From contig OX424559.1 in assembly GCA_949152475.1 (NCBI GenBank), positions 15,779,809 to 15,843,808 on the forward strand: DNA of 64,000 nucleotides, read 5' to 3'. Below the pieces are notes generated by a model, which saw only the letters and a program-made list of their open reading frames with translations, made no database searches and had not been told where the DNA came from. This stretch comes from Terebella lapidaria. Taxonomy: Eukaryota > Annelida > Polychaeta > Terebellida > Terebellidae. Below, piece after piece: positions 73 through 57,185 of this stretch (its first letter is position 1; the number at the start of each line of letters is the position of its first letter). Both the position numbers and the translations under genes were made by a program.

Positions 73-1458
73 ATGGAAGAAACAGAAGAATTGTTCTACA
101 CAGCCTTGCGAAGTGACAAAAGTGACATGGGTCCACCACGCTCTCAGCCATATACACAACATGAATTCCGGGAAGGAATGAGAATGGCACATGCTGTCGT
201 GGCACATGGCGACCTAAAATCTCGCCATAAAAAGTTGGTCAACTTTGACCGTGATCATCCTGTCATTATTAACGTGGAGGATGTTGTAGATGATACGCAT
301 CGTGGAGTCCTGCGAACATTTCCTCTGAAAGGCAGCTTGGAGCCAGTCGGAAGCTGCGCTGACGAGTGCCGTGTGGGGCAAACTTCAGAGATGGACTTCC
401 TCTATGTCATTTCTGATGATTTCACGTTTACGAAGTCAGATGAAGGCAAGTATTTCGAGATCTTCACAACAACTGGTGAGAAGTTAGTCCCATCGTCAGT
501 AGTTCCTCAGTTTGCTGATGCAGTGGAGGCCGCCGTGCAGAATTGTCCACACATCGGTTCAGCAGCAATACAACATGGTGGCTACAGAAGTCCTAAATTC
601 AGTGGTGTTAGGTATAGTGGGCCAGCAGTCACCATACTGCTCAGGTATTCCCCAGAAGAGAAGTCAACACAACGCATAGGAAATGTATTGCCTGGTGTAC
701 TGATATCAGAGAATAAGGGTGACATTGACATTTCCATCGACTTCACATTGGCTTTCAAACTGAGAGCTGACAGTGAAGTTGTAGCAAATGTTCGTGCGGG
801 ACTGATGCCTTTACAGCAAGCACTGCCCAGAAAGGCAATCTCGAAGACAGACGTCCATTTTGTACCTGATCTCAAAAATGATGGATGGCTCCTGACAACA
901 TCTCGACTTGAGGCAAAACTATTCTCTACTGTACCTGACAACGCATCTGTCAAAATGGCGTTTGCTCTCTGTAAAATCGTCAGCTATCAGAGTGCATACA
1001 CAGATCACGAATCCAAAACACCTCTGCAAACTGGGTTGGCACAAACACTCGAAAGTGCTAAGCAGGAACCAACAGGAGATTGCCTAAATAGATCTATGAG
1101 ATTCGCTCATTGTTTCCTCACACAGGAAGATGCATTCAGACTGGGAGAATGCACGAAAGCAGATATCAAATTGAATGCTGCTGCTCTGAAGCATATCTTG
1201 CTTGCCAAATCATTACAAGAACCAGTTTTCTTCCAAGAAGGCAATGACACCAAAAAAGATTTCAAAAACCTGGTCCTCGGCACATTTGCGATATGTGCTA
1301 ATCTGCAATCATCACACATTCCACACTCATTGATTACCGGTTCTGTGATCAATGTCTTTGCTATAGCGAAATCTGTTCTGCTTTGTGTGGAGAAGCAACT
1401 GGAGTTGAAGAGAGATATGAGAGCAAAATGTGCTTTATGCTGTCAGCTGTTTGATGAG
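73..1458 (+). CDS. Exon 1: complete Mab-21/cGAS-type nucleotidyltransferase domain
   Basis: Residues 1-462. Active-site G93-S94 is followed by E106-M-D108 (SEMDFLY), the GS...ExD signature of this family. The third acid is D223 in ISIDFTLAF, which aligns with the ISVDI-type strand of cGAS that carries its third catalytic Asp. W272 and S277 in GWLLTTSRLEAKLF match the W-x-x-S-x-S-x-x-E-x-x-L helix. HIPHSLITGSVINVFAI (about 415-431) matches the C-terminal lobe motif with the conserved P-H/Y turn, so both lobes are present. Start: the ATG has a good context (aaacATGG). The exon ends GAT-GAG before GTAAGG, a strong donor. If the intron is retained, the frame adds 13 residues and stops at 1500, giving a nucleotidyltransferase without ankyrins. 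The domain length is normal for a Mab-21 protein. Confidence 0.88.
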
Positions 1459-4400
1459 GTAAGGAGCAACTTACATATAAAAAGATATGGTATATTGTGA
1501 ATATATGTGTATGACATATATTGTATTTGTAATCATGCAATATTTTGACTGTCGAAAAGCATTGTTTTGATACGACTTTGTATGACGATGTGTATATTTA
1601 ATCTCCAATGGCATGTCTTGTTTCCATAATGTAACTGATATAAGCACGATGAGTGTTGAGTTGACATGTGGCGATTATTTTGAAGATTTAGTTGACTAAT
1701 TTAAGTCAGTCTGCCATTTTCTTAACTTAAGGAACTTTTGCATTCTCATTTGAGTCAATTGACATCCTGGATATGGCATGGAACAAATTGCTTTTGAAAA
1801 AAAAATGACTGGAAAGCAAAGATTGCGTCACACACAGTCACCTATTAAATCCCCCCCCCCCCCCACACACACACGTTTTTTTACCTTTGACTTCCTCACA
1901 ACCCGTCCATTCCCCCACACAACCCGTTAATCTCGCCCTCCTGTCCTCCCTGAGCCTTTGCGTTTTACGCTCCCTCCAGTCCATTCCTACTCACCACTCG
2001 CTGTATAAAACGGGACTGACACTGGTAACCTGGTCAGAAATTTAGCCTTATCTTAGCATTGATCACAGTAAAATTCGTGTCTGTGAAACTTGCTATCGGT
2101 GTAATGCATGTTGGATCATCTGCTGGGTGCCGGAAATCAAGTCAGTCTGGTGATAGCGTCAATGAGAACATTAATTGCCCATGTATCTATTTTACTGTAA
2201 TGGAGATATATTTGTTTGCGCGGCATCCGTTTTGATAAGCCAAGACACATTCCAACACAACAGTATCACTAAATTGTGTGGCTGTGTGTAACACCTGAAG
2301 AAAATCCTTGCTGGTGATCTTTTGTGGTCTAGACGTTTCAAGGACGGAAAAATTGTTGAAATAATAAAGGCAAAATATGATATCTTTTGCAACCAAATGA
2401 AATGTCAAAGTATCAACATTGTACTTGATAACTCAGTGAAATCATTCAAAAGATAATCATATGTTAATCGAAATCTGATTGAAATTTAGCAAAAAATAAC
2501 TTAATCTGATTAAGTTAACTCAATATTTGAAAATCAATTGATTGATTAACTTAATGGCCCCATGTCTGATGTTGAGCTACTCTCTCAGTCCAACAAGACA
2601 TGTTAATCTTTCAGACAATATTCCGTTTATCTGTCAAAATGTACATATGAAATCGTCGGACGCAAATACACGTTCAATATTGAAAGGAATGATCCATTCT
2701 AGTCTGGTTTCACCACCCTGTTTTTGTATCTCACATAAACCATGTTAAATGAGAAAAAAAAAATGGTAAGAAATCGTAATTATATCTTTCAGAACAAGCA
2801 AGGAGGAGACATCTGCAAAGAACGTGAAGCACTTTTGATAGAAGCCTCGTCCTGGGGACAAGTCTTGATAGTTGAAGCTTTGATCGATTCAGGTTGGAAC
2901 AATTCATATAACATTCATCAGAGTAGATGCCACTTTCATGAAATACAAATACATCGATATTAAAAATCATACACATAGCCATCCATTGAATGTTTAACAT
3001 ACCATGTATGCGAAATGACAAAAAGAGAAAAATACTTTGTAAATGTATATTACAGTGAAAAAAACGTACTTATTGGTAGCACAGTAAGTTTTTACTTCTT
3101 TTTATAAAACCCAATATATGCAAAATGCCCAGACTGAGCATATGAGTGAGAATAGGATGCAAGCATCCCGCATCCGTGCCTGGTCGCGACAGGGATCGTA
3201 ATTACTGAATTAGAACCAGGTAACTGTCCGACGAAGAAGTCTGGTTTCGATACATTACTTAGACAATGCATCGTCAATGTAAAAGTAGCCCGGTGTGACA
3301 AGCCCGAAAGCCATGGGCGCAGCTTCTGGAACTCGTACACGTGGGCTTGTGGCTGGCTGAGCGCCTAAGAATTACCTTAGCAGTGAGGCCCAAAGTCTGT
3401 TGAAAAGCCTGAAATGTATATTTCGGCAACCCAATTTAAAGTCAATTTGCATAGTCCATGTGAGACAAAATTAGCGCATTTGCTTGTTTAAGACAGGTAT
3501 CCTGATCAAGATATGACTCGATTGTGATCAAATGATGAAAGGTTGTTCGATGCAATACTTCTTGGAGGCAATGTGGTTTTGAAGGTTATGTTCTCGTCCA
3601 TGTCAATGCCAAATAGTTTAGTTTGAGGAGACATAAAGATAGATGAGGAATGACATTTAATTTAATCAACTGAGCACTTATGGACGGATTGCAATAATGA
3701 CAAATTCGGTTTGATTGACATTCATCTTGAGACGATTGAGGAGCATGCACCTCTTATTTGCCAGTAATGCAATACCCAGTAACACGATATGCAGGCATAC
3801 TGTGTGGATGTTTCACTCTAGAGCTGCAGTCGAGCATATTTGTATGTCTGGGTGCAAATGAAAGCCGAATCTGCTCATCAACCAGTTGTTTGATACCACT
3901 TTTTCCTACCATTTTCACTTCATAAAACGTTTGGAAACACCAGTTAGAACATAATAATTAAATGATGGTGGTTGTGGGTAATGTTACTTGGCGGTGGTCG
4001 AATATGAATTTATGGGTAAGCAACAGTCATCTGAACCTTATTTTCCTGTGCTTTATATTTTGAGCGTGAATAGAATTAGCTCCGAGTGAGGCGAGGCGGA
4101 ATGGCGTGGGGTCCGGGCCCGCTCAAGGGCTCTAGAAGCTAAATTTTTCACAACGATCTGTGGTTTCTTTCTGAGGCTGTAATTTCCTCAAAACAATAAA
4201 CACTAACCATTTTAAATATTGGAATATTGAGAGATTTCTATCATGTGAAATTGTTCCAATAGCACATAAGCTACAAAATGGTCCAGGGGTGGATCATGGA
4301 ACATGACAAGAAGAGGGCCAACAATTATCGTTTGGGTTCAGGGGCCCGATCGAGGGTTACAGAACCCAGAGTCTTTCTATGTGCCCTCGTAGCTTCCTGG

Positions 4401-10400: not shown

Positions 10401-11802
10401 AACTATCAGCTGTTATATGTATGACACATAAGTATCTTCCAGCTGAACAGATTCTAGGACTCATCGTGCAAAATAAATTGTCACGATGCACAAAATTGTG
10501 TATAATACATTAAGCAAATTTATGTTTTGTTTGCAGAGATCGAACCTAAATATGCAAATAGTTTGAAAATGTTTCGAGTGGAATTGTCACAATATCCTTC
10601 ATAGTTTTAACCTTTATTTGGTGTCTCCAAACGATTTATGAGTTGGAAATGGTATAAAAGTGATATCACACACCTTTGTGAGATCATCATTGAGAAAGTA
10701 ATGTATTTCTTAGTGTCGGCAGACCGAAATCCAAGTTGGCCACCAAAGTGATATTGGCAGAAAAACTATTTTTTTCCAAATAAATTACATAGGTGCCTGT
10801 GGTCTCGGAAAAATAAGTTACAAAACAAACTATGCTTGATTAGATGGATAAATAAAAAAATATGACCGTACCAGCAGCCGATTTTCTTTTGTTTTATGCG
10901 CCACTCAGAGTTACCTGTGACTTAACCTCTTTCACGCCCGATTGGCTCGAACATATACGAGTAAGCTGGAATCGTACTGCACCAAGGGATACAACGCACC
11001 GAGAATGGCGGTAATGTAAACAAACTCAAAATATCTCCACCAGAAACTTGCAACGAAATCAATTAGAAAGGGCCATCTCTTTGGACATACAAGTGCCGAT
11101 AGATAACTGTTATGTTTTCTTCGTTCGATCAGAAAGGTATGGAAAACTACATAACTTACTGCCAATATCACATTAAAACCCCACAGGCCAATATTTCACA
11201 GTGGGATTATCTAAAATATTTATTCTAACATTAATACATATTTTTGAAAAAACAGCCGTTAAATATCCTGGGTGCTGCATGGGATTCATCTTCTCGACTA
11301 TTATCTTCGATATTGGGTCCATGTCACGTACATTACTGGTATAATTCTGATCACATGGGTAGGACGTATATTGAATGGCAGACTTATCACAATACTATAA
11401 AACTATTACAGGTGTCAATATCAATGCTGAGTGCAGAGTCAATAGCATGTCAGTCACTGCACTATGTGCTGCATGTGAAGACGGTCACGTGACAGTGGCA
11501 GTTCTGTTGATTGATCGTGGAGCAGACATGGAACTGGGAGATATCAAGCCTCTGATGGTTGCCGCACGTGGACAACATTTGGCTGTAGCCGAACTGCTAC
11601 TGCATCGAGGTTCGTATTAACATTAGCAATAGCAACAACAACAACAACAACAATAATAATAATAACAAAAATGATAACTATCAATAAGGGTATTCCCGAC
11701 TTTGCTCACACTCACCCTTTGGAAAAAGATTATTCTGGCAAACTATGATGACGAAATTGAAAAGACATAGGTTGCTGTGTTCATAGTAGAACTTATGTAA
11801 GC

Positions 11803-11841
<39 letters not shown>

Positions 11842-14800
11842 GAAGAAGAAGATGATGACCCCCATTTTTGTGTTTAAAAAAACATACACAGCGGTTCGTT
11901 GATAAATAAACAAAATGGCGGAGAAATCTAAGATTTTATTAAATATTGATTTTAGTGAAAATGACCAAAATTGCCCCTTGTTGGTGGTATTTTTGGAGTA
12001 AAATTACCCATAATTCCACACCAAACAGAATATGTGATCCCAATTTTCTGTTTTCGAATGCACAATGTCATATTGATCATTCTTTAAAAGTCTGAAAATC
12101 AAATGAATTTCAAATTTCAGCTCCTCAGACCGGGTCCAAAGGTAGCGAACTACCTTAGTGCCACTTTTACCCCCAATAGTGTGCTCGAAACTGCCCCCTT
12201 TGCCCCACCTTTCATGTGTTTCACAATGTCGCTTTTACCCCCACTATTGCGTCTGAAAATGACACCGTTACCAAATGTAGTGCATCTGGAAAGGTTGCCC
12301 TTGACCCAGTAGTGTCTTTAGAAATGTCGTTTAGATTGTGGTAAAAGATGTTTTTTTCTGTAAGATTGATCAGGAAGATGATGAGTTGTTAATGTCGGGC
12401 TTATATTGCAAAATGATAACAATTGTGGAATACTGCTGTTTTGTGACAATGAATTATTTCTGAAATCTATGAATATATTTAACGTATTCAATAACGTTCC
12501 AAAATATATTATACCAATGTTTTGAAAGTCTTTGACTTTTACATTTCATTCATTCAGTTTTTATCATTTACATATAAACGCCGACAAAACAATACATAAT
12601 TTACTGATGTGTGTAGCTTCAATTTTTGATGATTTCAATTTTTCCATAGTCCATTTCCCTTTTCTAAGCAGCAACATTCCTATGTCACCGGCATATGGTG
12701 TGTTTGTTTCTCAACTTATACGCTATCCCAAAGCTAGTTGCAAATATGAGGACTTTGTCTATCGAAGTGCCCAGCTAGTCTCTAAACTGCTGCGACAAGG
12801 ATATGTTATACAAAGACTTATAGCTGCGTTTAAGAAATTCTATGGACGTCATCATGATCTGGTTGATGAATGCACCAAATCCATGTCTGCCATGCAACTA
12901 GATCTATTTTCATGTTAATTTTGGGGAATTCATGACGGGTGCCACTAGTGGGGCAGGAAATGCTCACTTTTCCAGGAACACCTGATTTCACCTCCTAATG
13001 GCCATTTTTGAGGGTTCATGAGTTTCCCTGTCATTTTTGTTTTCTCTCACTTCGTATGCCTGATATGACTTTCTGTCCCGGGACTATGAGATTGGATAAC
13101 GGACCCTGTTTTGTTTGCTCGGAATACTCAATACTGGGTATTGATTCCACGTCTATCCGCTATGTTATCAAACTCTGTATAATACCGTATGAAAGGGGGC
13201 CACGGTGCCCTCTGTGCACCCTTGTACGCCTACGCAATTGTCAATGGAATGCAATATTGAAATACAACTAAAATAAATGCTTGAAAAAGGACATCATACT
13301 TTGGAAATGTCTCTCAAATCCATCTTCCCATGGACAAATGGGGCAACTCACGTGTACATATGGGCATTTCTACTTATAATAATGATGAGTCAGTCTGTAA
13401 ATGTCACCCTTACTCCGATAGTGTGTCGGAAAATATCGTCATGGGGTAAGTGCGACTAGTCGGACTTACCCAAATATTTATTCTTATTATTATTATTGTT
13501 TAGATATAATTCAGCAAAGAACGTTTCAGGTGCGGATGTCAATGCTGAGAGCAAAGAGGCTGGCCAAACAATCACAGCTTTGTGTGCAGCATGTGCTAAT
13601 GGTCATGTGCATATGGCAGAGCTGCTCGTAGGTCATGGAGCAGACCTGGAACTGGGAGATATCAAACCTTTGTTGGTTGCAGCACACGAGGGCCACCTGG
13701 ATATAACAAATATCATGCTTGATCAGGGTTAATAATTTCCTATCATTTGTGGTTTTACTACCTTTTCTTGTATTCTGGTGAAAGGGAAAGTATCACTAGT
13801 GTAGCATAACTTTTCTAGGTGCTGATGTCAACGTTAAACGTCAAACTGAAGCTGAGACTGTCACAGCTCTGTGGGCCGCATGTGCTAATGGACACGAGGC
13901 TGTGGCAGAGCTGCTGATCGAGCACGGAGCAGATGTTGAGCTGGGGGACAAAAAATCACTGGTGGCTGCAGCTGAGAACGGACACTTGGGAATAACCAAG
14001 CTGTTGTTAGATCATGGTTAACAATTTTGTTTTATTTCGTTCCAATGTTTTCATGAAATGGTGTAAAATCGACCGATCTAGACCCATGATAGATTGTAAC
14101 AAATCTTTCAGATGCCAATGTTTATACTGAGTGTGAGGTCGATGGAAATACAGGCACAGCTTTGCATTTTGCCTGTAAGTCTGGTCATGTGGCTGTGGCA
14201 GAGCTTTTGATCGACAGTGGAGCAGACAAGGATCTGGGAGACAATAAACTACTTATAGACGCAGTGCAAAAGGGGAATCTGGAGATAATCAGGCTTTTGC
14301 TTGAGAGAGGTGAATAATAGATCAATTTGCTTGAAAATCTACACCAATATTATAAACATAATACTGTTAAAAATACATGACAAAGATATTGATTCAATCC
14401 AAGCTGTAGCTAGGTGTCTTATCATGCTTATCAATGGCTGAAATGGAAACACATTACTGTGAATTGGTTGTAAACTATTGTGTTGTTCTTTGTATTAATT
14501 ACATTCGAGAATGACAGCAACAAATTAAACAGTAATTAACATATGTATAACTGTGAGGAATTTTGCCTTGAAATACTCGAAAACCAGAAAAGTGATTGTA
14601 GTGTCTATTTTTACCCCAAAAATGATGTCAGAAAAAAATCTGAAGGTTAAAGGTTGGTGATGGCCAAAATATTGAAATAATGATAAGTGGGTAATATTGA
14701 GGCCGAATCTGAATTGGACTTTTCACTACTTTCCTTGACACAGAAAACGATGAATTTCATTATTTTTTTGTGAATAATGATTTTCAAAATTACAAAACAA

Positions 14801-17800
14801 ATACATGGGCTATTGGTAATTCCAGTTTAAGGGTTGTTGTAAGTAGTCCATCTTTAGCACAATACTACAGAATGGAATATTTCAATTATACAAAAACAAG
14901 TTTGCTTATAGTGCAATAATAAAACAAATACTGATTGTTATGTTTATGGTCATTGTGCTACAGGTGCCGAAATCAATGCTGAGGACGAAGACGGGTTCAC
15001 AGTTATCTCTACAGCCTGTCGCAGGGGGTACCTGGATGTTGCGCAGTGGTTGCTGGAAAAAGGGGAGTCTTTTCAGGGTCTAACTTGCAATCACACAGCA
15101 AGTGTGAAGAATAGGGTTCGCCAGGTCCCTATAAGACCTATCATGGCGTATAGTGTCTTTGGTCGCTGTGTGGTTAGGCTCGACTCTAGTGTTCAACACA
15201 ATATCCTTTACTGGCACGTCAATCACTTGGCACGAATGAAATGATATTCACGCTCACGGCCACACAATCACCGCTACGAATAGTCCAATCAGTTAATTCC
15301 AGTCCAACAATATATATTAGTCCTTCTATATCTTCACACTTTATCACTTCTCAGAGTTTATCCAAAACACATCTCTCTCTGAACACTTCTCTTCAACTCA
15401 GAATGATGACGGGGCATGTCTGTTTGTCTGGGTATTTTCTTGCTTAGACTTGTGGGTCGTGTGTTATTGGCTGTGGGTGTTGTCATTTCATGTTCTGTGC
15501 ACGTGACGTTTGCGTGCAGAGTGAAGGTCCTGTGGGTGTGTCGAGTCTGAAAGAAGGAGAGTTATGTATAGATAGTGAAGTAAGTGTATGTAAATGTATG
15601 TGATTTGCCAGGGATAGGGATGTTACAATCAGAAAAAAATATTCTGCATTAAGGATTGATTGCAAGTGATCGTCATGAACCTGGTAGTGACCAGCTGTCC
15701 ATTCACTTATAATGTAAATATAAAGGTAACAAATTCATGAATTTACACACTTCCAACCAACGTGAAACTTTGCCTTTCTGATTGTTAGCCATCAAGAATT
15801 ACCAACCGAGACTCTGTTTCTTACTAATCAATGTTAAATTTGTTAAATTCATCGTTTTCATATGTCATTTTCCGACCTATTTCTCAGTCTACAAAATATA
15901 CTCACAACAATGCGAGCGAAAGGATTATGCTGTGTAGCAAATAGCGGCCCAAGTATCATACACTGCGCCGTCCTCTAAATTCAATAAGGATTAAAACGGT
16001 GACAGACGGATTAAATGGCATTCATTTAGTGGACGAGTAGTATTAAGGCGCAGTGTATGATAGTTGGGCCCAAATAGCTGGTGAGGCCAGTAAAACTCAC
16101 AGGTGATATGCACCTGGGAGCACCGAGGTGTTTGGGATTATGAATGTTCAGCTCATTGTATTCATCTCACAGAAAGTATAGCCCTAGATATTCTCATTAT
16201 TTTGACGACAACAAGGAATAAATATATGCAACAGCCAGTGCTTGTCAAACAGAACACTCGAATCTTCGTTTTGGTGAAACGTATAAATGATTTATCTAAT
16301 CATCAAATTGCACAGCTTTCGTGATATCATTTATGAAACCATGTATCGGTTCATCATCCATGCGTATTTGTGTGTGTGCTAGCCAAGTTTTAGGTCAGGG
16401 GATTGTATTGTTTTGGTGATTTTGTTACCTTTACTTTCACATTATAAGTCATGGAAAAGTGCCTCAGTGCAGTCATCGGTAAGTTACGTGCAATCACACC
16501 TTAGACCCCTTCATTCAACTACGCTCTCGGAGTTTACCTTTCACAAAACCTGCCATTTCAAAAATCAAAAATCCAAACTTTAAATCCTAAGGTCCAAATC
16601 AGTGACCAGGATTATAGTTCATAGCACAAATTGTTCAACATGCAAGTGAACGGGTCAGCACAATATATATACCACCACCTTGGAAAATCTTTTAGTCAGT
16701 CTTTCGCTCTGGGTCACGCAATCCATAAATATCCTGTCTTGTAACTGGCTGCATTCTGATTACGGTGCTTCACTGCATGACTACTCGCTATCGTTCTTTA
16801 ATCTGGGGGAGTTTATGAAGGTGCCGCGAACGGATTATTTGTCCATCTTTACTCGCGTAAACCCTGTGAGTTAAGCAGTTAGTCTTTAATCATCATACGG
16901 TAGCACACAACGGACAGTTCAATCGATTTGCTTTCACAGACGATGTCCTGAACACTTGGCTGCGACGATAATGTCATTCTCACATGAGCAACCTCACTTC
17001 CATACATTTCCATCCAGATTCCAAAGGGCAGGCACGCAGTTATTGTAGACTAAGATGGTATGACTGGTCGGCCATGAAGTAACGAGATGAATTTTATTCA
17101 ATGCCTTTGATGACAGGCCTCGTCTTGGTGTGTATGAGTTTGGCTGTGCAATTCTTACGTTTCTTGGACGTTCCCTTGCATTTTACAAGGGGGGAGTAGA
17201 AGCTCATTTCGGTGCGTGCTCCAGAGTGGACCACTTCGGGACATCTTAGATGATATCTACCAAAAAATGCTATGCCAGTCAATTGGCTTTGACCCATTGC
17301 AGACTCAAACATAGTTATTATCTTCCAATGCGGAATCTTTCTAGATAAAGAGAAAAGTCAACTTTGTTTAAAGATTGATATCCAGCAACTTATTCAGCTT
17401 ACTGAATTCATTTGATTCTGATCCTGTTTTTAGGTTACCAGACCTTTGGTCTGATAACCTATTGCCGTGGTGTGAGTCCATTGCCCGTCGTCGTCGTCGT
17501 CGTCCATTGTCATCGTCGTACACTGTCATTTTTATCTTCAAAGTTTACAATCGAACCTTTTTGAAATTTTGCACAAAAATGCCTTAAAATATTTCGAGAA
17601 ACTTGAATTGACCTTCGATCTAAGTTTCGAGGTCGCAGGAAAAACCTCAATTGTGAACATATAGGAAACATAAATATTGTCGTGAATATTAACCTAGTTT
17701 TCAAGGTCACAAGACAAAATAACTTTTATCTCGCGTATTATCGACTTTACAGCTTGGGAATCATTTGTGCAAATATAGAAAATGATATGTGCCGAATATT

Positions 17801-20800
17801 GTCATGCTCTTGAATTTGACCTTTGACCTCATATTTAAGATCAAAGGACAAAATGGCTAATATCTTGCTCCTCTATTGACTCTATTGGCTTTGGAATTGT
17901 GGACATATAGGAAATGATATACGCTGGATATTCTGATGACCTTGAATTTGAAACTTGACCTTATTTTCAAGGTCAGAGCACGAAATGGCTAATATCTCGC
18001 TAATTATCGACTTTACAGCTTAGGAATCAATTGTGAACATATAGGAAAGGATATGTGCTGAATATCGCCATGACCTTGAATTCGACCTTTGCCCTCATTT
18101 TGAAGGTCACAGAACGAAATGGTTAATTTATTGCTTTATCGAATATACAGCTTGGGAGTCAATTGTGTAAATAAAAATTTTTATACGCTTAATATTCTGA
18201 TGACCTTGAAATTGACATTTGACCCCAATTTCGAGAATAATATTATCATTATTATTATTATTATCTTTTCAGGAATCAATTGTGCAATTATTGGGAGTGA
18301 TGCATGCCGAATATTTTGATGACTTTGAATTTGACAATTTACCTCATTTTCAAGGTCATATGACAAGATTGCTAATGTCTTCCTTGTTATTGAATTTACG
18401 GCTTAGCAATCAATTGTGGACATATGGGAAATTATATACATCATGCACATATATGCTGGATATTCTCGTGACCTTGAATTTGACCAGAGACATTATTTTC
18501 AAGGTCACAGGACAAAATGGATAATATCTAAAATATGAAACATATATTGTTCGGTAACTTGTCTTAGCCTTTAGGCTAATTTTTACTTCAATTTTTAGAG
18601 TGTTGCTTGTCTCATTCTCTGCTTTATGGTTCAAAATATTGGCGAACATACTGAATGGACAGACTTCAGTAGGGGTTATTGGAGAGTGTTTTGGGAACTA
18701 GGCGGGTCTGTGAGATTTTGGATTAGAAAAACAGTGACAACTTTAATAAAAATAATATAATTGTATGATGTAATCATACAGCATAATTATAAAATAATAT
18801 ATTATTATTAAAATATGACTATTTCAGGTGTATCTCTCAACGCCAAGATGACTATCAAAGGTACGTCATGGACAGCTCTCTCTGTTGCATGTTTCTCTGG
18901 TCACATGGCGGCAGCGAAGCTGCTGATTGACCATGGAGCAGACATGGAACTGGGAGACTTCAGACCACTGGCAGCGGCAGCAGCCAACGGACACCTGGAA
19001 GTAGTCAGATTACTCTTAGAGAGAGGCGAGTGTCTTATATTATTAGCTGACATTCTTGTTATGTCATGTATATTCAGCTACAGCAGTGAAGGGAGAATGG
19101 AAATTGTTGTGTGATTGGAGGTGCTAGAAGAGATTAAAATACTGCTCTTGATACTAGTTCTAATACTTATAATAATATTGATAATCGGTAGAACAGAAAA
19201 TAGTTGACTCATGACACCTGGACACATTATGTATGCCTGACAATACTAGGCGAATGCCAAAATTCATTGATGTTTGTATTGACAGGCCTAGATCTAATGC
19301 CATGTCACGTCATAATGGCACATCATTCTGTTTGTCTTGTCTCTGTTATAAATTACTATTGTTATTATTAATAATACTATTATTGACGGCAAGTGTTATT
19401 ATTTACAATACACTGCTATGAAATGCCTAAGCTAATTCACAGGAATGATTGTCAGGTAATAAGATCTCATAATGATTTTATAAAACCACTGTGATATAGC
19501 CATAATTAGTGGTCATTCATGAATGAGAATACTATTCATTGGAACCTGGCGATAGAAACATATGCCCAATATGATCCTCAGGGTATTTTAGATGATATCT
19601 ACCAAAGAGTGCTATGTCAGTCAGCCGCTTTGTCCCAGTGCAGACCAAAACATGACTATGATTTACCAATGTAGAATCTTTGTAAACAAGGAGATAAATC
19701 AATTTTGTTTAAACATTGTTATCTAGCAACTTATTCAGCTTACTAAATTTGCTTGGTTTCGATCCTGTTTTTACTTCATTTGTTGTCTCATTCTCTTCTC
19801 TGTGGTTCGAAATATTGGTCAATATCATGACTGAACAGACATCAGTAGTGGTTATTGGAGAGTGTTTTGGGAACTAGGCGGGCCTGTAACACTTTGGATT
19901 ACAAATCAGTGACAACTTTATTTTAAAAGTATGTAAAAATATGATGTAATGATTCAACATGGTTATAATAGATTATTATTAAAATATGAATATTTCAGGT
20001 GTATCTCTCGATGCCGAGAGCACTTTCAAAGCTCAATCACGGACAGCTCTGTGTCAGGCCTGTTTTGCTGGTCACGTGGCTGTAGCAGAGCTGCTGATCG
20101 ACCATGGAGCAGACATTGAACTGGGAGACGTCAAACCACTGATGGCGGCAGCATACAGAGGGCACATGGAAGTAGTCAAAATGCTCTTGGAGAGAGGCGA
20201 GCGTAGTATATTATTATCTGACATTATTGTTGTGTTATGTATATTCAGCTACAGTAGTGAAGGGGGAATGGAGATTGTTTTTTTATTATAGGGGCTAGAA
20301 GATAATGAAATACTGCTATTGATACTAGTTCTAATAGCACTATCTACTTCGACGCATAGCAGTTAGTCGTATGCTATTCCTCAGCAAATAACTCTAATTG
20401 GCGTATAGGCGACGAATTGACTGAGGGGTTTTATCCACGGGCACTAGTCAATATTGAACAACCAGCCCATGTATTGCAGGATACTCTTTCTTCTGAATTC
20501 AATAAAAATTAGAAATGTGTCAGACGGATTAAATATGGCATTCATTCAGTGGATGTGTAGTATTAGTATAGTGTTCTACATGGGTCGAACAGCCGTCGGG
20601 GATGCCGAATACACTGAGTCATCCTCAAGCTTATTGTACTTGTACCGGAAACCCCGGTAAATAAGCCCCGGGCATACTTACGGAAAATCGCCCTCAGAGA
20701 ACTATAAAATTGAAATCGAAAATACGCCCGGGGGCGTATTTTGGGGATAAACTTTTGAACATTTTGTGAATATACAGTGGATCTATTAGGCCGCGCTGTT

Positions 20801-23800
20801 GAATACTGATTATATCGTTAACAGTAGCACTGTGCTCTTACATGTGTTGTGTACATTCTTCACATCCTTGAAAATATTACTACTGTCCATAAAGCTTTGA
20901 TAAAACAGACAATAGCGAAATTTGTTTCTCAGAAAATATGATACCATATTATACCGAAGAGAGAACAATATAGCAGCTGAATGTAACGTTTGACGCCTGC
21001 AGCGCACAGGGCGCACGCGACGGGCGTCGTAATTACTAGAACTACAACCAGGTAACAGTCCGTCCGGACGAGTCCGGCCGTCATACATCACATCATAACA
21101 CATCCCCCTCATCATCATCCGCATCATCATCATCATCACCAACAACATCACCAACAACATCACCATCAAACAACATGTACATTAGTTATGGTAATGTAGT
21201 CGTATGCAGAGCCTGAGATGCCATTAGAGCGCACCACAGAACTCGCGCACGTGGGCATGTTGCTGGCCGGCCTTGCCCTGGACAGCCCGACGGTCTGCCA
21301 GAGCCTGTGTCGCACCATCCCAGGGCGAGAGACCGGTGATCACAGGGACGAGCCCCGAATCAGCACGGTCCCCCTCCTGGCCCTCTACGAGAATTGTCCC
21401 CAGGGCCCTCACGGGCCTTAGCCAGTGGGAAGGGACGTAGAGCTCATGGCCGAGCCCTCCTTTGTCATCTCGCCTTGCTCAGCTCTGAGACATCTCCACT
21501 GACCAAGACGGTTTCAGAGTATTTATAACCCCTGAAGCACGAGAAACGAGGGATGACGTAAGACCATTGTTACAACACAATGGAGCGAAAGGATTAGAGT
21601 GCGTTGCTATTAGAACACGAAGCGTCCAAAACAAGAGAAGTGTTTACAAAGAATCGCCTGCCATGATCTTTGGGTGAAATCACCACATGAATATTATATG
21701 TAGGTATGAAACGATGTAAACTCATAATATATTATATGTAGGCCTCGGTAAAACGGTTAACTCACATTATTTATTGGTACACTGCATAGGAAATACAACA
21801 CGGTATAGGGTCCACAGAAGAAACAACCGCACCTAGAACGGTAACTATTAGTAACGTTTTTGGTTTACCATGGAGCGAAAACATACGCCCCAGGCGTATT
21901 TTCGGAAGGCTCTTCTGTTAATACACCCATGGGCAAACTATCAGGAAGGCTTATTCACGAGAATTCCCGATACCACGGGTATGTCTATGTGGGATAGGCG
22001 GAGGTCTCGGCTATTTGTGAAAGTGTGATTAGCTATACAATATGTATCACACTTATCCAAATTCAACGTAAAACCCACGGGTATGTCTATGTGGGATAGG
22101 CGGAGGTCTGGGCTATTGTGAAAGTGTGATCAGCTATACAATATGTATCACACTTATCCAAATTCAGCGTAAAACCCACGGGTATGTCTATGTGGGATAG
22201 GCGGAGGTCTGGGCTATTGTGAAAGTGTGATTAGCTATACAATATGTATCACACTTATCCAAATTCAACGTAAAACCCACGGATATGTCTATGTGGGATA
22301 GGCAGAGGTCTGGGCTATTGTGAAAATGTGATTAGCTATACAATATGTATCACACTTATCCAAATTCAACGTAAAACCCACGGGTATGTCTATGTGGGAT
22401 AGGCGGAGGTCTGGGCTATTTGTGAAAGTGTGATTAGCTATACAATATGTATCACACTTATCCAAATTCAACGTAAAACCCACGATTTTTGCCAAACTTT
22501 GTCGCATCGTACTTGTGTGGCTGGTCAACGCATACTAGTATTGTATGCTATATACGTAGCATCGAAATATAATATCTGAAGAAAGATTAAAGAAAATATA
22601 CCACACCATATATCCGATCACCTCGGCTACCATATCATACATACGGTCGTTAGCAATATGTTTGGTTGTGTTTAATTCGGGGGTGGTCTGAATTTTAAGC
22701 AATTCGAACAACAATATGCGTTGACCATGCACCTACACAATTATCACACAGCTACAAAATTGTGGGCAAACGATGATTTTGTGGTGAACTTGATTTTGGA
22801 CATATACACACATGTAATAATGTTAAATATTCTGACAAGTGTGCGTGGATACGACTTCTCGCCCTATTCGTCTGATATACGCCAGTTATTTGCCAGTGCA
22901 TAGATGGCGACTAGTGCTAACTGGTCAAAAGTATTCCCGGACTGAGCTAAGCATTCGGTGTGTCAGTTTTTTTGAGTTGCTGAGATGAGTAGAAAGTGAT
23001 CTCAATGGCACTTTGAACAATGCCAAGGCCAAGTTAGGGGAGAAACAATGGGGCGATAATACCGAATTTTCCGATAGTGCAATGGATATATGCCAATCAA
23101 TCGACTGTGCCCCAGGGCAGACTAAAACATGGCTATTATCTTCCAATGTGGAATGTTTCCAAACAAAGAGACAAATAAAATTTATTTAAAGATTGTTAGC
23201 CAGCAACTTATTCAGCCTACTAAATTCGTTTGGTTTTGATCCTGTTTTTACTTCGTTTGTTCGTGTTCGTTGTCTCACTCTCCTCTCTATGGTTCAAAAT
23301 TGAGGGATTTTTTAATAATAATTTTGGGAACTAGGCGGGTCTGTAAGACTTTAAATTACAAAAACAGTGACAATTTTAATCAAAATAATGTAACAATATG
23401 ATGTAATGATATAACATAATTATAATAGAATATGGTATTAATAAAATATGAATATTTCAGGAGTATCTCTCAATGTTGAGATCACTGTCAATGCTCAGTC
23501 AATGACAGCTCTGTGTGGAGCATGTTCTGAAGGTCACGTGGCTGTAGCAGAGCTGCTGATCGACCACGCAGCAGACCTGGAACTGGGGGACCTCAAACCA
23601 CTGACAGAGGCAGCAACCAGCGGACAGCTAGAGGTAGTCAGAATGCTGTTGAAGAGAGGTAAATAGTTATAATTATAACTCATATTCTTCATTTTGTCCT
23701 GTTTATTAAGATGCAACATTGGAGGGGAAATGGAGATTGTCAGGCTATTATTGAAGCGAAATGAGATGATAATACTGTTATTTGTACAAGTTCTAATTCT

Positions 23801-25022
23801 AAAGATAATATTAATATCAAGCATAACAAAAAATACTCTTCTTTCAACACTTGGGCACGTCTTGTTTAGCTGATTGTATTTGCGTGACTAGTTGTCCAGT
23901 TGATTTGGGGTGCTATGTGAGTGAGCACACGAATGAACAGCAGCTAAATGCACTGACTGTGATTGACATGATTGGTCATTTATGGATTTTTGACCAGACT
24001 CAGGACCCATAGCAGAGAGCTCTCTGGCTCAATGAACACTACATGTGACTTTCTTATATTACATGACAGAATTTCTGATACCATGAGGAACAGGTTAAAA
24101 ATCGTTAATCTTTTTTTCTGAATCAATGTATTCTGCGATTTCAGTAAATACGTTTTCACCGTGCCTTGTCTGTGTTTCCATGATAATGTATTTTGTTACT
24201 ATATACATCAATGCTTCTCCTAATAGCAGTGTATTCGTCACAAAACCAGAACTTTGTACAAAAATCATGAGCTATTGACTTCCACAAAGCCAGAAACTTT
24301 CTTTTACCAATGATTATTTTCATGTACAGTTGACATATTCATTAGGTGCATTGCTACTCATGTTGGTGAGTTAGCAAATAGGCTGAGCACGGACGACATG
24401 CACAAGGTGACAAGGCAGATGCCAAAATGCATGCATTTTTCCAGTGATAGGCCTAGGTCTACTCTAAAGCCATGAGACTTCATAATGACACATCGATTTG
24501 TTTGCTCTGTCTCCATCATTGTTTAGTATAAAATATTATTAATAATAGTTTTGATGACAAAAGTGATACACTGCTATGAAATGCATACAATTATTCACAG
24601 GAATGCACATCGGGTAATAGAATATTCACATAAAACCACTATTAAATTTTATATTACACTGATTGATGATCATTTATAAATGAGAACATTATTCATTAGA
24701 GGTTTCTGAATTATTCGAATGATATACAGGAATCGGATTCGTGAAACGCCACTGAATGATAGCTAATTTTAGCCCCCCAAAATTTTAGCTCACCTATATA
24801 CATATATGTGTATAATATGTATGTGTATACTGTTCTAATTCAAAGAATCATTGAAAAAAAATCGTTTATAATACATCATTTGATCATACTGCAGGTGGGA
24901 GATATGGACGAGCTTTGTTTGAGCAGGCTCAGGCTGCCCTATCACAGACCCGCCGCAACGGACATGACAGTGTGTGGCTGCTGCTGAACAAATATATTGA
25001 GGACATGGCTTCGAAACAATAA
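73..25022 (+). CDS. cGAS-like receptor (Mab-21 nucleotidyltransferase) fused to ankyrin repeats, gene model
   Basis: Proposed exons: 73-1458, 2793-2892, 11412-11609, 13530-13727, 13819-14016, 14112-14309, 14964-15062 (doubtful), 18828-19025, 19999-20196, 23461-23658, 24895-25022. Exon 1 ends in phase 0 and all later junctions are phase 1; the sum is 3,099 nt, exactly 1,033 codons with the stop. The N-terminal 462 residues are a Mab-21/cGAS-fold nucleotidyltransferase; the rest is an ankyrin solenoid with a short helical tail. Known family biology: cGLRs sense nucleic acid or other ligands and make cyclic (oligo)nucleotide second messengers that act on STING-type receptors. The ankyrin part probably binds a partner or ligand; that is inference. 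No zinc-ribbon (H-x5-CC-x6-C) like that of vertebrate cGAS is visible. Splicing is unproven, and two introns need GC donors. The gene may begin further upstream, because the reading frame is open back to a possible splice acceptor at 55. A catalytically silent Mab-21 paralogue is the main alternative, but the acidic triad argues against it. Confidence 0.82.
1459..2792 (+). other. Intron 1 of the cGLR-ankyrin gene
   Basis: Starts GTAAGG and ends ATCTTTCAG. AT-rich. Contains a C-run near 1851-1864 followed by CA repeats. I see no further exon or recognisable repeat in it. Confidence 0.6.
2793..2892 (+). CDS. Exon 2: linker and first ankyrin-like repeat
   Basis: Reads NKQGGDICKEREALLIEASS, then WGQVLIVEALIDSG: the helix pair and turn of one ankyrin repeat (A-x-x-x-G/W-G-x-x-x-I-V-x-x-L-I-x-x-G). 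It enters in phase 0, matching exon 1, and leaves in phase 1, matching every later exon. The acceptor TTTCAG is good. The donor CAG|GTTGGA is weak at positions +3 to +6. It switches the gene from phase 0 to the phase-1 exon cassette system. Confidence 0.7.
2893..5007 (+). other. Intron 2, first part: decayed repeats
   Basis: No exon seen. 3150-3390 shares short stretches (for example cgtaattact, ccaggtaac, acgtgggc) with the repeat at 20990-21270. Around 4083-4145, 4337-4372, 4440-4515 and 4620-4690 a core resembling gggtccgggcccgctcaag recurs, so this is a diverged tandem array of about 60-260 bp spacing. A G-run lies near 4951-4966. Confidence 0.5.
5008..8084 (+). repeat. Direct duplication, copy 1 (about 3.08 kb)
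   Basis: Begins ctatgtatgtttcgggcc and ends gcagacttatcac. Nearly identical to 8336-11390, with only scattered substitutions and a few small indels (around 6867-6927 and 7435-7470 relative to copy 2). The ends are neither inverted repeats nor flanked by an obvious target-site duplication. It may be a recent tandem duplication, a large non-autonomous element, or an uncollapsed-haplotype assembly artefact. Confidence 0.9.
6132..6428 (-). pseudogene. 98-codon frame resembling a repeat-encoded zinc-binding protein, copy 1
   Basis: Encodes FGYYRQCYQQFTKSLNKLK followed by a CxxC (CIYCEK). The YxxCYxxFT plus C-x-x-C layout recalls zinc-binding segments seen in uncharacterised, repeat-encoded proteins of marine invertebrates. 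That is recall of a family style, not a search result. It is an isolated piece and identical in both 3.1-kb copies. No function is assigned. Confidence 0.35.
8085..8335 (+). other. Unique spacer between the two 3.1-kb copies
   Basis: 251 bp absent from the rest of the window. Nothing recognisable. Its presence shows that the duplication is not a simple head-to-tail tandem. Confidence 0.7.
8336..11390 (+). repeat. Direct duplication, copy 2 (about 3.06 kb)
   Basis: Same order and orientation as 5008-8084. It ends 21 bp before ankyrin exon 3. Differences from copy 1 are concentrated in two short stretches (about 10194-10205 and 10706-10775); the rest is near identical, so the event is young. 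Confidence 0.9.
9460..9756 (-). pseudogene. 98-codon frame resembling a repeat-encoded zinc-binding protein, copy 2
   Basis: Identical peptide to the frame at 6132-6428, carried by the second 3.1-kb copy. See that entry for motifs. Short and without detectable partner exons. Confidence 0.35.
11412..11609 (+). CDS. Exon 3: ankyrin repeats (two)
   Basis: 198 bp, phase 1 in and out. Reads (G)VNINAECRVNSMSVTALCAA, CEDGHVTVAVLLIDRG, ADMELGDIKPLMVAA, RGQHLAVAELLLHRG: two 33-residue ankyrin repeats with TALxxAxxxGH and GAD. The acceptor is ATTACAG and the donor GAG|GTTCGT (weak). The second repeat has the ELGD-x-KPL opening common to all exons of this gene, which marks them as copies of one ancestral cassette. 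Confidence 0.85.
11610..12531 (+). other. Intron 3, first part: microsatellites and short degenerate repeats
   Basis: CAA/AAT repeats at about 11634-11668 and AAT/AAG repeats at 11807-11853. Between 12155 and 12330 a roughly 30-bp motif (ttacccc-a-tagtg-gtc-gaaa) occurs about three times, with another copy near 13405. No exon seen. Confidence 0.5.
12532..12918 (+). pseudogene. Fragment of a reverse-transcriptase retroelement ORF
   Basis: 128 open codons ending in a stop. Contains FPFLSSNIPMSPAYGVFVSQ, LIRY, KLLRQGY and KKFYGRHHDLVD. This order is one I recognise from the C-terminal part of a retroelement ORF common in marine invertebrate genomes (typical form SNIPSAPAYGVYISQLIRY...FYGRYNDLV). 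Only this tail is present; no catalytic RT core (YxDD) lies upstream. It sits in an intron and is taken as a fossil LINE-like fragment. The exact clade is unknown. Confidence 0.7.
12919..13529 (+). other. Intron 3, last part, with a roughly 92-bp dispersed segment
   Basis: 13065-13157 (gactttctgtcccgggacta onward) is about 95% identical to 61912-62003. The rest has nothing recognisable. The intron ends with ACGTTTCAG. Confidence 0.6.
13530..13727 (+). CDS. Exon 4: ankyrin repeats (two)
   Basis: 198 bp, phase 1. Reads (G)ADVNAESKEAGQTITALCAA, CANGHVHMAELLVGHG, ADLELGDIKPLLVAA, HEGHLDITNIMLDQG. Near-consensus repeats (TALCAACANGH, GAD). The acceptor is TTTCAG; the donor CAGG|GTTAAT is weak. 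It is only 91 bp upstream of exon 5. Confidence 0.88.
13819..14016 (+). CDS. Exon 5: ankyrin repeats (two)
   Basis: 198 bp, phase 1. Reads (G)ADVNVKRQTEAETVTALWAA, CANGHEAVAELLIEHG, ADVELGDKKSLVAAA, ENGHLGITKLLLDHG. The acceptor is TTTTCTAG and the donor ATG|GTTAAC. Exons 4-6 lie within 800 bp with introns of about 90 bp, the most compact part of the gene. Confidence 0.88.
14112..14309 (+). CDS. Exon 6: ankyrin repeats (two)
   Basis: 198 bp, phase 1. Reads (D)ANVYTECEVDGNTGTALHFA, CKSGHVAVAELLIDSG, ADKDLGDNKLLIDAV, QKGNLEIIRLLLERG. TALHFACKSGH is closest to the general ankyrin consensus. The donor AGAG|GTGAAT is good. Confidence 0.88.
14310..14963 (+). other. Intron 6
   Basis: AT-rich, ends GTGCTACAG. 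No exon, RNA gene or recognisable repeat seen. Confidence 0.6.
14964..15062 (+). CDS. Exon 7 (doubtful): single ankyrin repeat without a matching donor
   Basis: 99 bp reading (G)AEINAEDEDGFTVISTACRR, then GYLDVAQWLLEKG: a good single repeat in the same phase as its neighbours, after a proper acceptor (CTACAG). At the point where a phase-1 donor is expected the sequence is GGGGAGTC, with no GT or GC. The frame stays open to 15241 and could serve as an alternative last exon adding about 60 non-ankyrin residues. It is either skipped, terminal, or crippled by the repeat-like DNA directly behind it. Skipping it keeps the frame. Confidence 0.5.
15063..15945 (+). repeat. Repeat-like insert behind exon 7, possibly a solo LTR (minus strand)
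   Basis: 15103-15628 read on the minus strand starts TGTAACATCCC and ends TTCTTCACA, an LTR-like frame (TG...CA), but no target-site duplication is visible. The 11-mer acttgcaatca near 15085 recurs inverted near 15657. Classified only as a probable insert. No coding capacity recognised. Confidence 0.3.
15946..16070. mobile_element. 125-bp MITE with 8-bp target-site duplication
   Basis: Starts GGCCCAAGTATCATACACTG and ends with its near-perfect inverse (24-bp terminal inverted repeats, one mismatch). Flanked by an exact 8-bp direct repeat, caaatagc, at 15938-15945 and 16071-16078. An 8-bp duplication suggests mobilisation by a hAT- or P-type transposase; the terminal bases are not the usual CAG of hAT. 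Related copies lie at 20466-20584, 36273-36392 and 61789-61907. Confidence 0.85.
16079..17237 (+). other. Intron 7, middle
   Basis: AT-rich, no exon or recognisable repeat. The last part (from about 17030) leads into the module shared upstream of exons 8, 9 and 10. Confidence 0.5.
17238..17433 (+). repeat. Duplicated intron module, copy A
   Basis: Begins around gacatcttagatgatatctac and includes cagcaacttattcagctta. It matches 19583-19775 and 23085-23250. Together with the following exons it shows that exons 8, 9 and 10 arose by duplication of a block containing the exon and its upstream intron. Confidence 0.75.
17434..18575. repeat. Element with an array of about seven diverged ~150-bp repeats
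   Basis: Bounded by aggttaccagacctttggtc at the left and gttcggtaacttgtcttagc at the right, which are partly inverse to each other. The inside repeats a unit containing gaccttgaatttgac, ttcaaggtcaca, aaaatggctaatatc and caattgtgaacatatagg. It interrupts intron module A relative to copies B and C. A second, shorter copy of the family lies at about 35880-36262 (ending gtccggtaacctatctcag). It starts with a CGT trinucleotide run at 17486-17502. Confidence 0.65.
18828..19025 (+). CDS. Exon 8: ankyrin repeats (two), GC donor
   Basis: 198 bp, phase 1. Reads (G)VSLNAKMTIKGTSWTALSVA, CFSGHMAAAKLLIDHG, ADMELGDFRPLAAAA, ANGHLEVVRLLLERG. The acceptor is ATTTCAG. At the expected donor position the sequence is AGAG|GCGAGT: a GC-AG intron with otherwise strong complementarity to U1. 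If unspliced, the frame runs 29 codons further into a hydrophobic tail and stops at 19111-19113. Confidence 0.82.
19026..19998 (+). other. Intron 8, with duplicated module copy B (19583-19998)
   Basis: 19084-19110 reads SEGRMEIVV, a relic of an ankyrin second helix. 19583-19998 repeats the DNA upstream of exons 8 and 10, including the marker gggaactaggcggg. No further exon. Confidence 0.6.
19999..20196 (+). CDS. Exon 9: ankyrin repeats (two), GC donor
   Basis: 198 bp, phase 1. Reads (G)VSLDAESTFKAQSRTALCQA, CFAGHVAVAELLIDHG, ADIELGDVKPLMAAA, YRGHMEVVKMLLERG. The acceptor is ATTTCAG. The donor position reads AGAG|GCGAGC, again GC rather than GT and weaker than in exon 8. Read-through gives 31 more codons with the same hydrophobic character as behind exon 8. 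Confidence 0.82.
20257..20280 (+). pseudogene. Relic ankyrin half-repeat behind exon 9
   Basis: Reads SEGGMEIV in the frame that continues from exon 9. Matching relics lie behind exon 8 (19084-19110) and exon 10 (23721-23765), so the ancestral cassette carried more ankyrin sequence than the present 198-bp exons. Confidence 0.5.
20340..20460. repeat. Fragment of a dispersed repeat (third copy)
   Basis: Shares cgacgcatagcagttagtcg and ggcgtatag with the ends of the repeat copies at about 22480-22933 and 61185-61730. As at 61 kb, a ~120-bp MITE follows directly (20466-20584). Confidence 0.5.
20466..20584. mobile_element. MITE copy (119 bp), family of 15946-16070
   Basis: Shares the centre gtcagacggattaaat and the block with ggcattcattcagtgga with 15946-16070. 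The ends cccatgta/tacatggg are inverted but diverged. No clean target-site duplication. Confidence 0.65.
20640..21970. mobile_element. Possible DNA transposon with imperfect inverted ends, holding a GC-rich segment
   Basis: Left end gtaccggaaaccccggtaaa and right end ggcttattcacgagaattcc read as diverged inverted repeats. Just inside, tacgcccgggggcgtatttt and tacgccccaggcgtattttc are also related. The GC-rich middle (about 21000-21480) is homologous to 47395-47640 in inverse orientation. It contains no transposase frame. Confidence 0.4.
21971..22477. repeat. 101-bp minisatellite, five units
   Basis: Units start at 21971, 22073, 22174, 22275 and 22376 (101-102 bp each), beginning acccacgggtatgtctatgt. 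Each unit carries an inverted pair, aagtgtgat and atcacactt, about 16 bp apart, so single strands can fold. The units are about 95% or more alike, so the array is young. One unit-like segment occurs alone at about 61637-61740 in inverse orientation inside a larger dispersed repeat, which is probably the source. Confidence 0.92.
22478..22933 (+). repeat. Dispersed repeat, copy A (continues the minisatellite unit)
   Basis: Homologous to the reverse complement of about 61185-61640: shared landmarks are the stretch with tatcatacatacggtc, the gcgttgaccatgcac region, cgccctattcgtctgatata and gcgactagtgc. It ends near 22933. No coding sequence. Confidence 0.75.
23085..23460 (+). repeat. Duplicated intron module, copy C
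   Basis: Repeats the DNA upstream of exons 8 and 9 (cagcaacttattcagccta, gggaactaggcgggtctgta, cagtgacaa) and leads directly into exon 10. Confidence 0.75.
23461..23658 (+). CDS. Exon 10: ankyrin repeats (two)
   Basis: 198 bp, phase 1. Reads (G)VSLNVEITVNAQSMTALCGA, CSEGHVAVAELLIDHA, ADLELGDLKPLTEAA, TSGQLEVVRMLLKRG. The acceptor is ATTTCAG and the donor AGAG|GTAAAT, canonical. Exons 8 and 9, copies of the same block, have GC at this position. Confidence 0.86.
23721..23765 (+). pseudogene. Relic ankyrin half-repeat behind exon 10
   Basis: Reads GGEMEIVRLLLKRNE, a good second helix of an ankyrin repeat, but lacks the first half and splice sites. It is the best preserved of the three relics behind exons 8-10. 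Confidence 0.6.
23766..24894 (+). other. Intron 10
   Basis: AT-rich. 24400-24530 resembles 19240-19360 (ggcagatgccaaaatgcatg vs ggcgaatgccaaaattcatt; both then share aggcctag and a catcattctgtttg-like block), so the duplicated block reached this far. It ends CATACTGCAG. No exon seen. Confidence 0.55.
24895..25022 (+). CDS. Exon 11: terminal exon of the cGLR-ankyrin gene
   Basis: Phase 1 in. Reads (G)GRYGRALFEQAQAALSQTRR, then NGHDSVWLLLNKYIEDMASKQ and the stop TAA at 25020-25022. It looks like a C-terminal cap: a partial ankyrin helix pair (NGHDSVWLLLNKY) and an acidic-basic end. The acceptor CTGCAG is good. No membrane segment is visible. Confidence 0.8.
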
Positions 25023-41160: not shown

Positions 41161-41351
41161 ATTCCGAATATGATTTAGATGTTGCCTGTTTGAAAACTAG
41201 TGTAGATGTGATTTAAACTTTGTTGTCTGGTTGCCAAGGCAGGCGTAAACAAACGAGAAATCGCGGGAACTATGTATTTATTTCCACGGTAGAATGAGCT
41301 ATAAATAGTAAACTCCGTTAGGAGGAACTGTCAAAATGTAACCCTGTCACA
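41161..41351 (-). repeat. 5' LTR of the minus-strand gypsy fossil
   Basis: Direct copy of 38119-38311. No clear target-site duplication next to it. Confidence 0.85.
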
Positions 41352-48597: not shown

Positions 48598-49969
48598 TGT
48601 AACGGTTTTGGGGCGTACCCAAAAGTTTCCCCTAGGTAATTCTGTTAGTGTTTTGTGATATTATGGTTAAATAACCGTTTATTAAAATGTATATGTGTTT
48701 AAAGGTTCATACGGTTCCGTATTGTTAATGTTTAAAAGGTTTTCCGTCTCGGTATATTTGTGATGTTGGTAAAGCCGGAGACGGCTCCGGAGACGGAGAC
48801 GGAACCGGAGACGGAGTCGGAACAATGGAGTACAAAAACGTAATGACGTTATTTCCGGAAGGTCATGTGATCAGCCTCGTTTTCGGTTTAAAAGGTGACG
48901 TGTCAGCCACTGATTGGTTCTAGAGTGTTTTTAGAAATCCGGAAAATATCAGTGTTTTGGCGGACTATGACGTCACAATAGGTTGGTCACGTGACGTGGG
49001 TCTCAGGTCTATAAAAGCCCCCGCTTCACAGCGGACGGCGGAGTTGGTGTCCTGACGTCGACCTGTGCAGACCCCTTCTCCCATAGCAGAGTACTCCCTT
49101 GTTCCGGATAGAGTCATCCAGATGATAGCAGTTAAGTCTTCTGACTGTGCACTTGGAAAATAAACATGAAAACTTCAACCGAGTTGTTTTTCCGTGTTCG
49201 TTAGGGAACTGGAAGTTATAACAAAGTTAGTTCACCGGAAAAGAAAGTAATACGGAGAAAAGGGAGATATGTCCACAGTCGGTTAAGACCAAGTTGTAAC
49301 GACGTCTTAGGGTGATCCAAGAACCCAGATCACCAAGGAAGGAGACGGAGACGGAGGTGGTATTCAACGGAGCAACTACGGAGGCGGTATCGGACGGAGC
49401 AGTTGCAGAGACGGGAACGACGAAGCAGTTGCAGAGGCGGTACCGGACGACGGAGTTGCAGTGGCAGTACCTGAAGGAGCGATTGTAACCGGAAGTGAGA
49501 ACACTTCCGAGATACTCCATTTCAGGTGCAGTCGCAGGTTGCGGTGAGGCGGAGCCAACCGGAGCAGTTTGCAGTGAGGCGGAACCTGGCAGAGCGGTTG
49601 CAGTATTCGGAAACGGCAACGTTCCCGGATTCTCATTCCAGGTGCAGTCGCAGTTGCAGTAAGGCGGAAACCTGACGGAGCTGTTGCAGTAAAGCGGTAT
49701 CCCGACGGAGCAGTTGCAGTACCCGGAGACGGAAACGCCTCCGGATTCTTACGTTACAGGTGCAGTTGCAGATTAGCAGTTGGACAACGGTTAAGAGGTC
49801 CATTCCAGACCACGCTACCAACCTTAGAGACTTCTAGCCGGAGTTCAACCGTACAGCAGTAGCAGTTTCCCGGAGTTTTACCGTTTCAGCTCCGGTTAAA
49901 TAACAACTCACCCACCTCCCAAGAAAACCGGTTCATCAAGACGTCACAGAAGGGTGCAAGCCCATTACA
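48598..49969 (+). repeat. 5' LTR of the long gypsy fossil (1,372 bp)
   Basis: Promoter-like core: cactgattggttc (inverse CCAAT), ggtcacgtgac (E-box), ctataaaagcccccgcttc (TATA). Then a long leader rich in cggag and gcagt words. Confidence 0.93.
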
Positions 49970-49975
49970 ACTTTT

Positions 49976-49993: not shown

Positions 49994-50003
49994 CATCTGC
50001 AGT

Positions 50004-57149: not shown

Positions 57150-57152
57150 CGG

Positions 57153-57181: not shown

Positions 57182-57185
<4 letters not shown>

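Follow-up and report, generated by a model that had tools for sequence, protein, structure and literature searches.

A predicted cGAS-like receptor gene with an ankyrin solenoid, and its divergent gene family, in Terebella lapidaria

The 64-kb stretch of the Terebella lapidaria genome analysed here (the window) carries what we read as a single gene for a cGAS-like receptor, in which a nucleotidyltransferase is followed by a solenoid of 15 ankyrin repeats; the enzyme would make a messenger, and the solenoid would gate or place it. We give this reading as a whole a probability of roughly two in three. It is built on the gene structure, the same fusion in paralogs, the predicted fold, the catalytic triad, purifying selection and the existence of a family, all of them established computationally. 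The first-pass annotation had seen the surprise in the ankyrin array attached to a cGAS-like receptor (cGLR), but ankyrin-fused cGLRs are already known (Li et al., 2023; PMC9980059), and what is added here is a divergent, expanded and cassette-built clade with a changed nucleotide pocket.

Gene structure and ankyrin array

A scripted join of ten exons (Table 1) gives one open frame of 999 residues from the ATG at 73 to the TAA ending at 25022, and the bounds initially proposed for the gene thus hold. All nine acceptors are AG; of the nine donors, two (after 19025 and 20196) are GC and the others GT. On the forward strand of the 64 kb, AGGTAAG is found at two places, one of them the donor of exon 1. 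As for the 15 to 16 in-frame repeats counted at first, 15 can be joined, whereas the sixteenth (at 14964) has neither a GT nor a GC donor where one is expected; this orphan exon is probably skipped or degenerate.

Table 1. Features of the joined gene model, in window positions.
Feature	Position	Strand	Description
Exon 1	73..1458	+	cGAS/Mab-21-type nucleotidyltransferase, residues 1-462; donor GAG/GTAAGG, phase 0
G93-S94	349..354	+	nucleotidyltransferase GS motif, from profile alignment A2
E106-M-D108	388..396	+	first two catalytic acids, both in 25/25 members
D223	739..741	+	third catalytic acid, conserved in 25/25 members
Exon 2	2793..2892	+	ankyrin half-unit that opens the array and links it to the enzyme; entry phase 0, exit phase 1
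Exon 3, ankyrin (2 repeats)	11412..11609	+	198 nt, phase 1-1; positional counterpart in L010
Ankyrin exon (2 repeats)	13530..13727	+	198 nt, phase 1-1; counterpart in L010
Ankyrin exon (2 repeats)	13819..14016	+	198 nt, phase 1-1; counterpart in L010
Ankyrin exon (2 repeats)	14112..14309	+	198 nt, phase 1-1; counterpart in L031
Orphan single ankyrin repeat	14964..15063	+	acceptor present; no GT/GC at expected donor boundary
Ankyrin exon (2 repeats)	18828..19025	+	198 nt, phase 1-1; GC donor
Ankyrin exon (2 repeats)	19999..20196	+	198 nt, phase 1-1; GC donor
Ankyrin exon (2 repeats)	23461..23658	+	198 nt, phase 1-1
Terminal exon	24895..25022	+	short C-terminal tail and TAA stop
Candidate polyadenylation signal AATAAA	25250..25255	+	~230 nt past the stop

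The true start of the coding sequence may lie further upstream. In the window (region 50-72) and in two paralogous loci of the same genome (L010 and L011, see below) a TTTCAG-type acceptor precedes the ATG by 17 nt, and in L014-L019 by 8 nt; L013, L023, L020 and L027-L030 have no Met at the start position. Given these acceptors and the missing Met, an upstream start exon is probable, and the sequence suggests that translation may begin in such an unseen exon. Comparing the 10 kb upstream of the window gene with those of L010 revealed no shared upstream coding exon; all that matched were two short stretches of DNA, no more than ~170 nt from the ATG, and a single reverse-transcriptase-like frame (29% identity). 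At the opposite end, the terminal exon alone has no Pfam match, and a second AATAAA, at 25018, overlaps the stop codon.

Tandem 33-residue repeats exceed the Pfam cut-offs in the joined protein (Ank, 239 bits, 15 stretches; Ank_2, 263 bits, 8 stretches). Taken by itself, exon 2 reaches significance neither with Pfam nor with a generic repeat HMM, and it stands out only in a donor-restricted scan, in which a matrix made from 14 array repeats was run over 620 open frames ending at a phase-matched GT donor (both strands, array exons excluded): it came first with a score of 25.6, the next frame reaching 12.1. Once exon 2 is joined to exon 3, the Ank_2 score rises from 35.4 to 50.7 bits. We also considered a diversifying ankyrin surface, taking positions 2, 3, 5, 13 and 14, which are randomised in DARPins, as presumable surface sites of the repeat; these DARPin positions are described as lying on the surface. 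Across the seven two-repeat units they showed 4.5 versus 2.4 states (permutation 0.0005), and the three youngest units had 21/30 differences there versus 47/165 elsewhere. Between the window and L010 the corresponding values were 7/30 and 41/165, and the idea was dropped, the presumable surface positions being no more variable than the rest in that comparison.

Several repeated and mobile sequences accompany the gene. Intron 2 contains a near-identical 3.3-kb tandem duplication (window 5008-11067; segments 99-100% identical, spacing 3276-3328) that is either very recent or an assembly artefact, and shorter tandem repeats lie within introns at 21973-22484 (101 nt, five copies) and 17698-18232 (132 nt, four copies). 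Elsewhere in the window, a Ty3/gypsy-type element (49227-60459), with similar repeats near 49.2-49.8 and 59.9-60.5 kb, comprises a long protease-RT-RNaseH-integrase frame as well as a gag with a CCHC knuckle; of the additional frames downstream, one has a weak C2H2 finger match. A second element of this type (38376-41174, reverse strand) has RT, RNaseH and integrase frames. Rfam gave no match in the window.

The enzyme domain, its pocket and its family

The assignment of exon 1 to the Mab-21/cGAS group, made in the first-pass annotation, is borne out by profile comparison and by the predicted structure. Aligned with hhalign to a reference of human and mouse cGAS, MAB21L1 and cGLR1 (8gjy), exon 1 scored 48.8, against 24.9 for the best of 200 shuffles and a maximum of 21.6 among 43 further window frames (at least 120 aa each); with 25 family members included, hhalign gave 97.2% (E 4.2e-11, profile columns 64-283). 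This signal is confined to residues 1-287. Residues 288-462 alone showed no sequence similarity to cGAS (score 11.2, equalled by 80 of 100 shuffles), and the single pointer to a cGAS-like C-terminal half is the predicted structure. In the structure comparison of residues 1-462 that had been proposed, the closest known fold to the model is cGAS, and a caged fold with a C-terminal helix bundle is predicted; a model computed from exon 1 alone was unusable (pLDDT 34.5).

Other searches were less sensitive or silent. Mab-21 was the sole Pfam match on exon 1, at 17.5 bits, and reached 15.7 bits on the joined protein, both below the cut-off of 24.1. PDB sequence searches retrieved no cGAS, either with exon 1 or with the family profile, an HMM of four known members missed exon 1, and NCBIfam gave no match; a single weak PADLOC match, to ZorA (E 0.014), was taken as chance. 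Neither the full model nor exon 1 nor a mixed alignment retrieved anything from a protein database, but because the mixed alignment contained cGAS and MAB21L1 and retrieved neither, we take the database to hold probably few or no animal proteins and these misses to be uninformative.

The domain belongs to a large family. Searching the 762-Mb assembly that contains the window with exon 1 gave at least 95 matches (92 of 106 first-look candidates scored), which after merging of neighbours correspond to ~90 loci, a number that includes fragments and one gene counted twice (L012/L037); 30 loci lie on C5 and 21 on C13. The Pfam Mab-21 model had 43 matches in the same genome, of which three overlap family loci (89 loci compared). 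Since 20 of the 25 members in alignment A4 match this model when scanned singly (E 0.01), the low overlap is partly due to the threshold of the genome search. With so few family loci reached by the genome search, a count based on the Mab-21 model alone would be too low here. In a tree of 37 rows (25 family members, eight other Mab-21 proteins of the genome and four references), the members lie behind one branch with a support of 100/100 and a length of 2.16; the tree covers these 25 members only, and several long branches make its other parts unsafe.

Some loci have peculiar structures. L012/L037 (G000:C5:24564710-24567502) is an open frame of 964 aa in which the two halves of the enzyme exon are split by an in-frame insert of ~460 residues. 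L031 and L032 (G000:C17:20089439 and 20096322) are truncated copies, alike and 6.9 kb apart, in which N takes the place of the third catalytic acid; ankyrin exons follow both directly. Four distant members stand in tandem at a 2.2-kb spacing in G000:C1:84409121-84416746.

The acidic triad, initially reported as intact, is confirmed by alignment as E106, D108 and D223. The profile alignment places the GS motif at residues 93-94 (a candidate at residue 86 was dropped), 11 residues from ExD, a spacing equal to that of cGAS. All three acids are present in 25/25 A4 members, down to 28% identity, and GS in 24/25; of 30 loci, 27 have the triad and the remaining three are fragments, two with N at 223. 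The spacing of the acids is wider than in the definition of Li et al. (2023): 112 residues separate the ExD and third-acid motifs, outside the range of 50-90, and we therefore call the protein cGLR-like rather than filing it as a member. Counted between the acids themselves, the distance is 95-124 residues across the 25 members. GS is preceded by PV, the published pattern being h[QT]; a literal regular expression of it also misses human cGAS and 8gjy, and is thus non-discriminating.

The nucleotide pocket differs from that of the references, as H346 replaces a conserved K and A369-A371 replace S/N-Y-H, and these replacements are common to 24-25 of the 25 members. How they are to be read bears on two alternatives. 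The protein could be an ordinary ankyrin-fused cGLR whose pocket has drifted within normal cGLR diversity and whose product is 2'3'-cGAMP or another known one; this would fit the published ankyrin fusions and the large cGLR expansions described from bivalves and from a coral (PMC9980059), while the family-wide replacements and the long, fully supported branch speak against it, neither demonstrating a different product, and we consider this alternative somewhat unlikely. It is unlikely, and to a greater degree, that we are dealing with a catalytically silent Mab-21-like scaffold that kept fold and acids for structure or ligand binding and leaves the work to the ankyrins. Such a scaffold would agree with the lost K and S/N-Y-H residues, and product synthesis by Mab21L1-related proteins is described as not understood (PMC9980059), but the near-universal retention of acids and GS in divergent members argues against it: MAB21L1 instead has E/E/Q, with Q at the third acid, and DN in place of GS. 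We retain the reading of an enzyme fused to a solenoid, of which catalysis and a product would be expected; the pocket changes, shared across the family, point to a difference in product that can be tested.

Joining of the enzyme and ankyrin exons

The fusion of exon 1 to the ankyrins, as first proposed, is supported: the phases fit, exon 2 bridges the two parts, and the order is copied in paralogs. In L010 and L011 (C17), whose exon 1 is 81% identical to that of the window, a short intron (314 nt in L010) separates exon 1 from an equivalent of exon 2 with identical phases, and ankyrin exons come next. Counterparts of the third and fourth window exons are found in both and of the fifth in L010, in the same order. 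Three ankyrin exons of L010 are nearest to their own positional counterparts (47, 47 and 53 of 65 residues identical, others at most 36), and three of L031 are likewise nearest to theirs. Exon 1 has a dN/dS of 0.26 between the window and L010, exon 2 (a short exon with 21 synonymous sites) one of 0.21, and three ankyrin exons one of 0.23; the gene is under purifying selection.

Across the family, a phase-matched ankyrin-like half-unit occurs within 1.5 kb downstream in 20 of 25 paralog loci, several of which are recent copies of each other; none was found within this distance in L013, L034, L035, L036 and L038. With the neighbourhood counts drawn from 150 scored ankyrin matches out of 682 candidates, same-strand matches within 50 kb lie downstream of at least 27 of the 90 loci and upstream of at least 10, and at least four loci have them on the other strand.

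It is very improbable that there are two genes here, with a Mab-21 gene of a single exon ending at 1500 and next to it an ankyrin gene from the ATG at 2763 or 11375. In favour of this, unspliced exon 1 reaches a stop after 13 further residues, and both ATGs (the former 30 nt before exon 2, the latter before exon 3) are in frame with the ankyrin exons in the window; L010, too, has an ATG in frame shortly ahead of its first complete ankyrin exon, though at a different place. Against it, the donor sits at the end of the domain, exon 2 is phase-matched and conserved, the ankyrin exons are positionally orthologous, and in both close paralogs the equivalent of ATG 2763 runs directly into TAA and is not in frame. 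The paralogs speak against an unfused Mab-21 gene that merely has an unrelated ankyrin gene as its neighbour. Given the in-frame ATGs ahead of exon 3 in the window and, elsewhere, in L010, a further product made of ankyrins alone is possible.

Possible function and relation to known systems

Catalysis and its product, binding of a ligand or partner by the ankyrins, and the pathway served are what we infer beyond the architecture. The solenoid is made up of two-repeat exons that arose by duplication. When triggered, the core of the enzyme would most likely make a cyclic di- or oligonucleotide, and the solenoid would hold a ligand or partner protein and thereby gate or position the enzyme. The signal might then act on STING or another receptor. 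Exons for STING ligand-binding domains are present in the same genome (12 matches, on C2, C3 and C1); they allow such a link, prove nothing, and leave a STING output possible. A farther-reaching proposal, which we hold as tentative and rather doubtful, is a germline repertoire: ~90 loci, many with exon-cassette ankyrin arrays that would read a ligand in place of the enzyme surface, enzymes with a rebuilt pocket that would produce a messenger unlike those of known cGLRs, and several STING-type receptors that would detect this messenger. The ankyrin array would have the role here that leucine-rich repeats have in NLRs, where they read the ligand.

Most cGLRs (87%) stand alone, some bivalves have more than 200 of them, and the characterised ones recognise nucleic acid through the enzyme's back surface; many of those tested were silent, probably for want of a known ligand (PMC9980059). 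A large solenoid-bearing branch offers a direct test of whether cGLRs take other ligands via an added module. A literature search, with most subscription papers outside its reach, found no description of this clade.

Compared with known systems, the enzyme is 14-17% identical to human and mouse cGAS in structure alignments, among the matches listed. Alignment A2 shows no equivalent of the cGAS CC loop in the window protein, and the conserved K and SYH of cGAS are replaced. Between the second and third acids lie 114 residues in the window protein, against 91 in cGAS. Identity to Cv-cGLR1 of Crassostrea virginica (8gjw) is 15%. MAB21L1 has the Mab-21 fold and the columns of E106, T225, K373 and P384 in common with the window protein, but is without ankyrins in the sequence used. 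The passages on Aplysia Mab-21 proteins in PMC9334734 describe them without mention of a fusion. The HEPN-Ig-DED-TRADD-N-cGAS-TPR proteins reported from Crassostrea (PMC8195603) likewise place a cGAS-like domain in a long invertebrate immune repeat protein, but with other partner domains, none of which Pfam detects in our joined model. Nearest by description are the cGLRs with ankyrins reported by Li et al. (2023; PMC9980059), who describe fusions to TPRs as well as to ankyrins, the latter for instance in Stylophora pistillata: as here, a cGLR nucleotidyltransferase is combined with ankyrins, and the family is expanded in some animals.
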